A DNA stretch of 64,000 nucleotides from Chloroflexota bacterium. Its GTDB lineage: Bacteria > Chloroflexota > Dehalococcoidia > Bin125. The notes under the pieces were generated by a model. That model worked only from the letters and a program-made list of their open reading frames with translations. It ran no database searches and was not told the origin of the DNA. The number at the start of each line of letters is the position of its first letter. Positions within the stretch are counted from its first letter, which is position 1. The stretch lies in contig JAPPFB010000020.1 in the NCBI GenBank assembly GCA_028875225.1, positions 1-64,000 of the forward strand. The letters run 5' to 3'. Below, piece by piece: positions 23,184 to 30,031 of the stretch. Both the position numbers and the translations under genes were made by a program.

Positions 23184-24407
23184 ATGCCGCGCGTCATGCT
23201 GCTGATTCCGACCGCCTCCTATCGAGCGCCCGACTTCATGTCGGCCGCCGACAAGCTGGGCCTCGACGTCGTCGTTGCTTCAGACGTCGATCAACCGTTG
23301 GCCGACATGTACCCCGGTCGCTGGCTCACGCTGCCATATCACGACGTCGAACGCGGCGCCCAGGCAGTGGCAAGATACGCGGATCGCTTCCCGCTCGACG
23401 CGGTCGTCGCGGTGGACGATCCCGGCACCATCCTGGCAGCGCATGCCACAGCCGAGCTGCAGTTGACCGGCAACTCCCCCGAGTCGGTGATCGGCACGCG
23501 GGACAAATCGGAGTTGCGAAGAGCCCTCGATGCGCACGGTGTGCGGTCGCCGTGGTGGCAGGTCTACCGATTCGAGGATGACTCCCCTGCGAATTCTCTG
23601 ACCTATCCCGTCGTCGTCAAGCCGCTTGGTCTCAATGGGTCGCGCGGCGTCATGCGGGCGAACGATTCGGCGTCGTTCGAGCGGGCAGTTGACCGGTTGC
23701 GGAGACTGTTGGGCACCAGGTCGGCGGCGGAAGAGTGCGGCGACCTGGCCGACCGCTACCTCGTCGAGAGCTACATCCCCGGCACGGAAGTCGCCCTGGA
23801 AGGTCTGCTCCGAGACGGCGAACTGCACACCCTGGCTGTATTCGACAAGCCCGATCCGCTCGACGGACCCTTCTTCGAGGAAACCATCTATGTCACGCCT
23901 TCGCGACTGCCCGAAAAGCAGATCGGGGAGGTCGTCGAGACCGCGCGTCGAGCGGCGGAGGCGCTGGGGCTGCGCGACGGTCCGCTGCACGCCGAGCTGC
24001 GCCTGAACGACGAGGGCGCCTGGCCCGTCGATGTGGCCGCGAGAACCATTGGCGGACTCTGCGCGCGGACCTTGCGCTTCGGGGCCGGCATGTCGTTGGA
24101 AGAGATCGTCCTGCGTCACGCGATCAACGCCCCGCTGGACACGTTGAATCGCGAAGCTACGGCAGCCGGGGTGATGATGATGCCGATCGTCGGCCGTGGC
24201 CGCATCAAGGCCATCCTCGGTCTCGACGAGGCGGCCGCGGTCCCACTGATCGAGGACATCGAGATGGAGGCGCGCGTCGGCGACACGCTCGTCCCGCTCC
24301 CCGAGGGCGCCGACTACCCAGGCTTCATCTTCGCCAGGGGCGACGACCCAGCAGAAGTTGAGTCCGCATTGCGAGTGGCCTGGTCAAAGATCGAATTCGT
24401 ACTGTGA
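23184..24407 (+). CDS. ATP-grasp superfamily ligase
   Basis: The 407-aa protein has the layout of carboxylate-amine ligases such as L-amino-acid ligases and carnosine synthase. An N-terminal Rossmann-like domain (residues ~1-100) precedes the ATP-grasp fold: PVVVKPLGLNGSRGV (ATP Lys and Gly loop), LVESYIPGTEVALEGL, GPLHAELRLND and DVAARTIGG with the Mg-binding acids. A C-terminal domain (~300-407) follows. The substrate cannot be told from sequence. Its stop overlaps the start of a membrane protein (GTGA at 24404-24407), so the two are translationally coupled and probably act together. A leaderless-type TAGGCT and a phased repeat block lie upstream. Confidence 0.85.
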   Translation: MPRVMLLIPTASYRAPDFMSAADKLGLDVVVASDVDQPLADMYPGRWLTLPYHDVERGAQAVARYADRFPLDAVVAVDDPGTILAAHATAELQLTGNSPESVIGTRDKSELRRALDAHGVRSPWWQVYRFEDDSPANSLTYPVVVKPLGLNGSRGVMRANDSASFERAVDRLRRLLGTRSAAEECGDLADRYLVESYIPGTEVALEGLLRDGELHTLAVFDKPDPLDGPFFEETIYVTPSRLPEKQIGEVVETARRAAEALGLRDGPLHAELRLNDEGAWPVDVAARTIGGLCARTLRFGAGMSLEEIVLRHAINAPLDTLNREATAAGVMMMPIVGRGRIKAILGLDEAAAVPLIEDIEMEARVGDTLVPLPEGADYPGFIFARGDDPAEVESALRVAWSKIEFVL

Positions 24408-27725: not shown

Positions 27726-27877
27726 AGTCGCCCCCGCGCAGGGAGACCTTGCACAATCCAATCAAGGTCGGCCCCGCGTAGGCGGGGCCTGTTGGCCCGT
27801 ATCTGGTCGCGCTGCCCCCGCCTGCGCGGGGGCGACTTCTTCAGGGGACTACGCAATGGTCTCCCTGCGCGGGTGCG
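27726..27877. repeat. Nested palindromic repeat, family B copy 1
   Basis: Two perfect hairpins, GGCCCCGC-gtag-GCGGGGCC (27770-27789) and GCCCCCGC-ctgc-GCGGGGGC (27814-27833), are enclosed by long arms CCCCCGCGCAGGGAGACC (~27730-27748) and GGTCTCCCTGCGCGGG (27858-27873). The whole is a nested palindrome of about 150 nt between convergent genes. A relative lies at 40007-40126. Confidence 0.75.
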
Positions 27878-27960: not shown

Positions 27961-29322
27961 CTATCTCTCAATCACAGTGATTGTGTCGAGAGGGGCCAAC
28001 TGGTCCCCGGTCGGTTCCGCTCAACAGAACCAGTCTTCGGTCAGGCCGGGACGATGGACGTGGGGAGTCGTCACGTCCGGCCATGGCTCTGCTTCGAGCA
28101 CGCGGCAGGCCGCCTGTTTGATCTGCGCAAACGGAGTCTGGCGTTCGGCCAGTGCGGCGACCTCCGCTTGCAAATCGTCCATGCGCGGATCCTTGTGGCG
28201 CCAGTTCCAGGTGAGTCCGTCGGTGTCGTAGGCGACCAGGCAATCCATCTCCCGCATCGGTTCGACCAGGGGGGAATCGGAGGGGACCAGCAGACGTAGT
28301 CCGAGCTGGACCGGAGGCGTCAGCTCGACCAGTCGCCGCGTTTCGACGAACTGCAACAGTCCGAGATAGCGCTCGGCCGACGTCCATGGCGTAAACGGCA
28401 ACCAGGTCGGCCGCAAGGCAATCTCTGCCTGTGCGGTCAACTCAAGCGCAAGATCGAGGTCTGCCGCCGTATGCCCTTTGTCGAGGATCTCCAGAAGCCG
28501 GTCATCGACCGACTCAAACGCCGAAGTGATGAACGTGACGCCGAGCGTTGTCATTTCCGGCAAGACGTCCTGGTGCTCGATCAGGTGCTCGACCTTGATC
28601 GTGGCGTCGAACGTGATGCCAGGGTGTGCCTTCGAAGCGCTGCGCAGCAGGTGCATCGCCAGATCCGGCGCATTGAGAAAGTCGGGGTCGCCGAACGTGA
28701 TGTGTTCGGCGCCGGCCGCGACCTGCTGCTCGATATCGGCGAGCACGGTCTCGGCGCCGTTGAGGCGTAATCGACCTTCGTAGATCGGCGTGAGCGGGCA
28801 GTGCGTGCAGCGATGGGCGCAACCGCGAGTCGACTCAACGTAGCCGGCGAGATGCGACCCGCCGCCGGCGTCGCGATAGCTGGCGTACCGCTCGAGCCCC
28901 GGAAGGACTGAACGATCGGGCACTGGACGAGTGTCCCGGTCGAAGACCGGAACGGCTGATGCTATCTCACCTTTTGCCAGCGCGACGAGCTGCAGATCGG
29001 TGTCGCCGCTGATCGCACGGCCGAGACCGAGATCACGGAGAGAGCCGGCCGCCAGTCCGTAGAAGACGATCTTCCCCGACATCTGCTCCAGTTGCCGAGC
29101 GATCCGAACACCGAGCCGCGCGGCGGTATGCATTGGCGTGGAGATGCCGATCAAATCCGCTTCGGCCGCGGCGGACTGCAGTTGATCTGAACCGACTGAC
29201 TCGACTGCCAGGTCGAACGCTGAAACCGCATGTCCCGCAGAGCGCAACGCGGCGGCAGGCGCGGCGACACCGAGCGGTTGGTGACCCTGTTCGTACGTGG
29301 AGATCAGCAGGACGCGCGCCAT
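27961..29322 (-). CDS. B12-binding radical SAM selenoprotein with CUAEP tail (in-frame TGA)
   Basis: A cobalamin-binding Rossmann-like domain (residues ~1-130, VLLISTYEQGHQPLGV, DLIGISTPMHTA) precedes a radical SAM core with the 4Fe-4S triad in TRGCAHRCTHCPL. The conventional reading stops at TGA 28023-28021 after EDWFC. Read through, the next codons are A-E-P and then 16 more residues to TAG 27961, giving C-U-A-E-P, the exact tail of the CUAEP/CCAEP-tail radical SAM family, in which U is selenocysteine. A hairpin right after the TGA fits a bacterial SECIS. The full product is 453 aa with Sec at 434. The reaction of the family is unknown. It is normally mis-annotated as ending at 28021. Confidence 0.9.
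27992..28008 (-). promoter_or_regulatory. SECIS-like hairpin 3' of the in-frame TGA
   Basis: Starting 13 nt after the TGA, GGGG pairs with CCCC, a bulged A follows, then CC/GG closes an AGTT loop located 20-23 nt after the TGA. The position and the small loop containing G and T agree with known bacterial SECIS geometry. Selenocysteine insertion also needs selA/selB/selC/selD, which are not in this window. Confidence 0.65.
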
Positions 29323-29350: not shown

Positions 29351-29959
29351 CTACTTCTTCGACGGCTGGTAGTAGGGGTTCTCGCCCGACTGGTGGTCGG
29401 TGACGTCGATCAGCTCGTCGATCTCGGGCAGTTGCTCCTTGACCGCGACTTCAACGCCCTGCTTGAGCGTGACGTTGGCCATACCGCAGCCCTGGCAGCC
29501 GCCGCCCATTTCGATGTAGGCCTTGCTGCCCTTCACCTCGAGCAACTGCACGTAGCCACCGTGCGCGGCGATCTGCGGGTTGACCTGTTCGTCGAAGATT
29601 TGCTGGATGGCCTGGGCCAGTGGGTCGCGCCAGACCGGGTTGGGATTATTGAATTCGAGTCCGGACACGTTGGGGCCCTTGAACTCGTAGTGGATCGCGG
29701 TGCCGCGCAGGTCGTCAACCCGCTCGCCCTCGACGTAGAGCGTGAAGTCCGGGTAGTCGGCCGTGACATCGCCTTCCGGCTCGTATCCCTGCTCGACGAT
29801 CGTCAGCACGTGCTCGAATCCCTCAGAGGTCCGTCCGGCAATCTTCAGGCGAAGTCCGGCGACTTCCTCCGGATAACCGGTCAAGACTTCGAGCAGCTTC
29901 GACCGGGCAACCTCCGAAAAAGTGATGCCCAGTTCGTTGGCGTCCACGTTGGTGGTCAT
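29351..29959 (-). CDS. NfuA-like iron-sulfur cluster carrier
   Basis: The 202-aa protein has the two-domain layout of NfuA. A degenerate A-type (HesB-like) N-terminal domain (residues ~8-100, GLRLKIAGRTSEGFEHVL) lacks the usual Cys ligands. A NifU C-terminal domain follows, with QQIFDEQVNPQIAAHGGYVQLL and the cluster pair GGCQGCGMA. It hands Fe-S clusters to target proteins in the cytoplasm. A neighbouring radical SAM gene needs such clusters, but that link is only positional. An in-frame TTG four codons upstream is an alternative start; ATG 29959 was preferred. Confidence 0.88.
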   Translation of the reverse strand: MTTNVDANELGITFSEVARSKLLEVLTGYPEEVAGLRLKIAGRTSEGFEHVLTIVEQGYEPEGDVTADYPDFTLYVEGERVDDLRGTAIHYEFKGPNVSGLEFNNPNPVWRDPLAQAIQQIFDEQVNPQIAAHGGYVQLLEVKGSKAYIEMGGGCQGCGMANVTLKQGVEVAVKEQLPEIDELIDVTDHQSGENPYYQPSKK

Positions 29960-30031
29960 CTCTCGCCCCAATCCGAGTCTCGTTTTCTAGCATAGCGTTC
30001 GGTTGAAGCTGATTTGTGATTGGAATGCAGC

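Follow-up and report, generated by a model that had tools for sequence, protein, structure and literature searches.

Two groups of characterised radical SAM enzymes come close to the protein described here. ArsL, whose C-terminal tail reads RCCLKC (model NF040542), belongs to arsinothricin biosynthesis; it is reported as required for hydroxyarsinothricin, and a non-canonical transfer of the 3-amino-3-carboxypropyl group of SAM to arsenite has been proposed for it (PMC8552651). The second group, AprD4, OxsB, TsrM and MgmA, has a B12-binding domain and consists of classical or cobalamin-dependent radical SAM enzymes. No member of this group is known to have a Cys-Sec tail. Such a tail names the CUAEP/CCAEP-tail radical SAM (seleno)protein family, which already has a model (NF040546); no papers on it were found in the open literature searched. 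What is new here is the comparative proof of selenocysteine and the partner genes.

The family and its relatives

The window, a stretch of 64,000 nucleotides from a Chloroflexota genome, contains the following gene, with its domains and cluster motif.

27961..29322, minus strand: coding sequence of the CUAEP-tail radical SAM selenoprotein, 453 residues with Sec434, ATG to TAG (AlphaFold2 mean pLDDT 93)
29068..29310, minus strand: N-terminal B12-binding-like domain, residues 5-85 (marginal PF02310 match, 32.2 versus 32.1 bits; fold matches to AprD4, OxsB, MgmA and TsrM)
28432..28836, minus strand: radical SAM core domain, residues 163-297 (PF04055, E 2.5e-11, 44.5 bits)
28798..28821, minus strand: CX3CX2C radical SAM cluster motif, C168, C172 and C175 (within PF04055; invariant in 81 homologues)

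The window protein matches NF040546 from residue 4 to 443, tail included (E 8.7e-146, 486.3 bits). Because this score is 14 bits below the curated cut-off of 500, automatic naming could miss the protein. Members of its genus score 457-480 bits. A tree of 81 sequences, from whose alignment the tail was left out, groups the window clade with two members over the cut-off (L084, 526.8 bits; L083, 580.7 bits) at an SH-aLRT of 98. In the ranking of families NF040546 is followed by ArsL (242.8 bits, cut-off 450), and the third family reaches 52 bits. By sequence the window protein is a divergent NF040546 member that branches among sequences scoring above the cut-off. It has the full-length match, the domain order and the C-U/C-AEP tail of the family, and differs in its length (most others have ~460-490 residues), in its divergent genus-level branch and in a partner that is NfuA-like rather than YggX. 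The first-pass annotation had placed it in this family by its tail, an assignment borne out by tail and tree although the score falls short.

That annotation had also spoken of a B12/radical SAM protein. The radical SAM part holds, whereas the B12 label is a prediction from the marginal Pfam match and from fold similarity. The predicted fold resembles AprD4, OxsB, TsrM and MgmA (Foldseek E 1e-14 to 1e-16, TM ~0.55-0.69), but these enzymes are only 14-18% identical to the window protein.

Judged by sequence, ArsL is the nearest characterised relative. The two share 28-32% identity over ~87% of the length (29% over residues 3-384 of the window protein), the CX3CX2C motif and a vicinal pair in the C-terminal tail, which is Cys-Cys in ArsL and Cys-Sec here. 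The tails themselves differ, FCUAEP as opposed to RCCLKC, and no arsenic operon of the arsQML type surrounds the window family. Among the neighbours of 121 loci, ArsM and ArsR occur at one locus, ArsC, ArsQ and ArsN1 at none, and ArsB-like permeases near six, two of which duplicate others. An arsinothricin-type enzyme, converting arsenite into an arsenic-containing amino acid, would agree with the ArsL homology and with a vicinal Cys/Sec pair that would bind As(III) well. The score far below the ArsL cut-off, the absent RCCLKC tail and the near absence of arsenic genes make such an enzyme improbable, and because of the last point arsenic is unlikely as the usual acceptor.

Decoding of the in-frame TGA

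Before readthrough, the open reading frame (29322-28021, minus strand) ends in ...WFC-TGA. Its continuation comprises three elements.

28024..28026, minus strand: Cys433 codon TGT, forming a vicinal Cys-Sec pair with U434 (invariant in 81 aligned homologues)
28021..28023, minus strand: selenocysteine codon, in-frame TGA (U434), identified by TGA or Cys codons in homologues and the host Sec machinery
27964..28020, minus strand: post-Sec extension of 19 codons, AEPTGDQLAPLDTITVIER, lost if the TGA is taken as a stop (E436 and P437 invariant; A435 and Q441 nearly so)

On the minus strand TGT (28026-28024) is followed by TGA (28023-28021), GCG GAA CCG for A-E-P, 16 codons and TAG (27963-27961), exactly as first annotated in coordinates and codon count, so that CUAEP occupies residues 433-437. 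Besides the three cluster cysteines, the residues invariant in the 81 aligned homologues are P63-A67 (PMHTA), E429, W431, C433, C/U434, E436 and P437. In the AlphaFold2 model the tail looks anchored but mobile, because pLDDT drops to 86 at residues 421-430 and ~68 at 431-440, and a short strand (residues 426-427) directly precedes the Cys-Sec pair.

Conservation of the tail was followed at increasing distance. TGA and AEP are kept in all 21 tail-covering family sequences from 61 near-relative genomes. In Chloroflexota, 98 of 400 genomes have a family member, with a single internal TGA in roughly half of them and no TGA in roughly half; where TGA is missing, the tail is CCAEP. At least 555 relatives were detected in a scan of 84,980 species, and the best 80 of these were taken as loci. 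These 80 come from Chloroflexota, Poribacteria, Latescibacterota, Nitrospirota, Nitrospinota, Rokubacteria, Gemmatimonadetes, Planctomycetota, Acidobacteria, Bacteroidetes/Ignavibacteria, SAR324, Tectomicrobia, Elusimicrobia and deltaproteobacterial or myxococcal MAGs. At the Sec position the same best 80 have TGA in 57 cases, a Cys codon in 23 and any other codon in none. The 81-sequence tree implies 11 exchanges between Sec and Cys, and well-supported branches force no fewer than seven of these. All intact homologues examined have the C-[U/C]-AEP tail, with A, S or T at its third position; homologues that end at the TGA with no AEP tail, which had been named beforehand as counter-evidence, did not occur among them. 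One homologue (L086, G040:C112:85030-86438) is split over two frames that overlap, through either a frameshift or an error of assembly, and its TGA tail is intact. No relatives of the window protein were detected in the viral contigs searched.

The host genome (3.22 Mb, 96% complete) contains SelA, a full-length SelB (632-residue frame), tRNA-Sec with the anticodon TCA, and SelD, all located outside the window. The first-pass annotation had held that the host must possess such machinery, and had staked its reading on selB and selC; both were found. The host SelD has an in-frame TGA of its own (...ARCGG-U-GSKF; L020, G000:C23:272746-273687) and is likely itself a selenoprotein. In one Cys-form carrier (G289; single contig, 99% complete) SelA was not detected, consistent with Cys replacing Sec upon loss of the machinery. 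A selenium dependence of the pathway beyond the Sec residue was considered and set aside: SelA is present in 77 of 80 carriers, a weak association because the phylum baseline is already 321 of 400.

Directly after the TGA, a further element was identified by comparative pairing and covariation.

27992..28008, minus strand: bacterial SECIS-type hairpin with a bulged A and the loop AGTT (28001-27998)

The AGTT loop is found 20-23 nt downstream of the TGA. Bacterial SECIS elements form a stem-loop immediately behind the TGA, with a G in the small loop at its apex (PMC1088965), and the window hairpin has both features. The hairpin had been offered earlier as fitting this geometry. Alone it folds no better than shuffles (40-nt fold, z = -0.86) and was rejected as proof, so that only the comparative test counts. 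This test asked for at least four of five stem pairs in one of three registers, with a loop of 3-5 nt at +23 to +27. Such pairing was present in 96% of 100 distinct TGA loci; for the 40 Cys loci the figure was 32.5%, and for shuffles 25.5%. The loop G at +24 is found in 100 of 100 Sec loci versus 25 of 40 Cys loci, and stem pair 21-29 occurs as GC, CG and TA among the Sec loci.

The TGA is almost certainly decoded as selenocysteine through the SECIS hairpin and the host SelA, SelB, SelC and SelD. Were it a genuine stop, the conserved tail would be a coincidence or a decayed pseudo-extension. RefSeq does end the Thermomicrobium roseum CDS at its Sec TGA (WP_012643191.1, plasmid NC_011961.1, L203:7935-9371), and the window hairpin by itself is not significant. 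That one annotation, the only one checked, stops there even though its product bears the CUAEP family name, in line with the earlier expectation that standard annotation would miss the residue. Preservation of tail, SECIS and Sec/Cys exchange across more than 12 phyla, together with the full Sec machinery in the genome, makes a genuine stop very improbable. A genome-wide reassignment of TGA to a standard amino acid, for which no supporting point was found, is rejected as next to impossible: the ATP-grasp neighbour terminates at a TGA (window 24405-24407), SelB, tRNA-Sec and a SelD with a TGA of its own are encoded by the host, and in the best 80 of the at least 555 relatives only Cys codons stand in for the TGA.

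Neighbouring genes and the ATP-grasp ligase

Two further genes of the window are candidate partners of the selenoprotein.

29351..29971, minus strand: NfuA-like Fe-S carrier with an A-type-like N-terminus and a NifU domain (PF01106; TIGR03341, 107.7 bits), 28 bp upstream of the enzyme gene
23184..24407, plus strand: ATP-grasp enzyme of the L-amino-acid-ligase type (PF13535, PF18603), predicted pathway partner

The NfuA-like gene has the same position at the other loci of the genus and is a probable operon partner of the selenoprotein gene. Over the 121 loci (117 after removal of duplicates), six gene families concentrate at distances of up to 1.5 kb from the enzyme gene and hardly ever occur more than 6 kb away: YggX/Iron_traffic, NfuA-like, IscA/ErpA-type, ATP-grasp with LAL_C2, formyltransferase and DUF169. 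At 76 of the 117 loci an iron or Fe-S helper gene is found no more than 4 kb away; 75 of these have exactly one of the three helper families and one has two. The profiles of NfuA and IscA overlap owing to the A-type-like N-terminus of NfuA. No helper gene is that close at the other 41 loci, some of which are truncated by contig ends. The helper type switches only twice on the 81-sequence tree and is thus lineage-specific. Strong YggX matches are found genome-wide in 66 of 98 Chloroflexota carriers versus 8 of 302 non-carriers.

Several loci show local peculiarities. At L125:9423-10004 and in Ktedonobacteria loci, the gene immediately upstream of the selenoprotein gene encodes a YggX-type protein duplicated in tandem and in frame. 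Two Nitrospirota loci without the usual helper encode homologous small secreted-looking proteins, with no Pfam match, directly upstream (L165:9551-9952 and L185:9594-10004). In one Chloroflexota family (f68; L109-L111, L114) the Cys-form gene stands beside pyruvate dehydrogenase subunit genes, and at L111 a LipB gene follows directly; a lipoate link based on these LipB and pyruvate dehydrogenase neighbours was rejected as lineage-specific. In the window, a GC-rich palindromic element, CCCCCGCGCAGGCGGGGGC, lies between the selenoprotein gene and the next gene (27740-27860). It has 35 genome copies with at most one mismatch, whereas its reversed control has none, and is a REP-like dispersed repeat.

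The ATP-grasp orthologue is present in 95 of 98 Chloroflexota carriers versus 32 of 302 non-carriers (odds ratio 267; the p-values of such co-occurrence are inflated by shared ancestry). It occurs in all 19 carrier families, often with megabases between the ligase and enzyme genes, so the partnership is not merely synteny. The ligase also has other uses, since it is present in 32 genomes that lack the enzyme. Its best solved relative is BL00235 (3vot), an L-amino-acid ligase that forms Met-Gly, from a gamma-substituted 2-aminobutyrate substrate (PMC6920838). An ATP-grasp gene of Priestia near its RCCLKC enzyme is 20% identical to the window ligase and was not counted as the same partner.

The enzyme probably shares a pathway with the ATP-grasp ligase, and the adjacent iron or Fe-S helper, NfuA-like here, would supply or repair its [4Fe-4S] cluster. 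Conversely, the enzyme might itself belong to Fe-S cluster assembly or repair instead of being a client of NfuA-, YggX- or IscA-type proteins. Different iron and Fe-S proteins do fill the same neighbouring slot across lineages, and YggX is enriched in carriers. We consider this unlikely, as NfuA, IscA or YggX is present in many bacteria without the enzyme, and the near-obligate ligase and frequent formyltransferase and DUF169 genes indicate small-molecule synthesis.

Proposed reaction and significance

With its cluster maintained by the helper protein, the enzyme would cleave SAM in the manner of ArsL, and the group transferred would probably be 3-amino-3-carboxypropyl. The mobile Cys-Sec tail would bind or reduce a soft acceptor, or an intermediate, that receives this group, and the ATP-grasp enzyme would build the amino acid so formed into a peptide-like product. 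A vicinal Cys-Sec pair on a mobile segment is also present in the C-terminal arm of mammalian thioredoxin reductase, an unrelated protein that serves as a mechanistic analogy only.

Transfer of a SAM-derived group followed by ligation is favoured because of the ArsL kinship, the vicinal chalcogen pair in both proteins, the BL00235-like ligase and the Fe-S helper genes. The ArsL reaction may nevertheless not carry over, because the tail sequence is not shared and hardly any arsenic genes lie close by. An ArsL-like transfer aided by the Cys-Sec tail and completed by ligation is put forward tentatively, by analogy. The more specific version, in which aminocarboxypropyl from SAM is put on a soft heteroatom held by the Cys-Sec pair and a dedicated ligase then yields an undescribed small molecule or cofactor, is more doubtful still.

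A strong contender, if somewhat short of probable, is a selenoprotein with ordinary radical SAM chemistry, through a 5'-deoxyadenosyl radical or cobalamin-dependent methylation, in which the Cys-Sec tail is an electron relay only. The nature of the fold neighbours, the B12-binding-like domain at the N-terminus and the location of the tail on the low-confidence end of the model, as for a mobile arm, agree with this. On the other hand, ArsL, with its reported non-canonical aminocarboxypropyl transfer (PMC8552651), is nearest in sequence by a wide margin, and the B12 domain match is marginal. Taken together, the account that joins selenocysteine decoding, a pathway shared with the ligase, an iron or Fe-S helper and the chemistry inferred above is the best explanation overall, and we hold it with reasonable confidence.

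With the ligase partner, the Fe-S helper and the kinship with ArsL, what was an orphan selenoprotein becomes a two-enzyme pathway open to assay. The family is spread over more than 12 bacterial phyla, mostly outside the classical model bacteria. Should the Cys-Sec tail prove catalytic, selenocysteine would here take part in radical SAM chemistry, which is uncommon.
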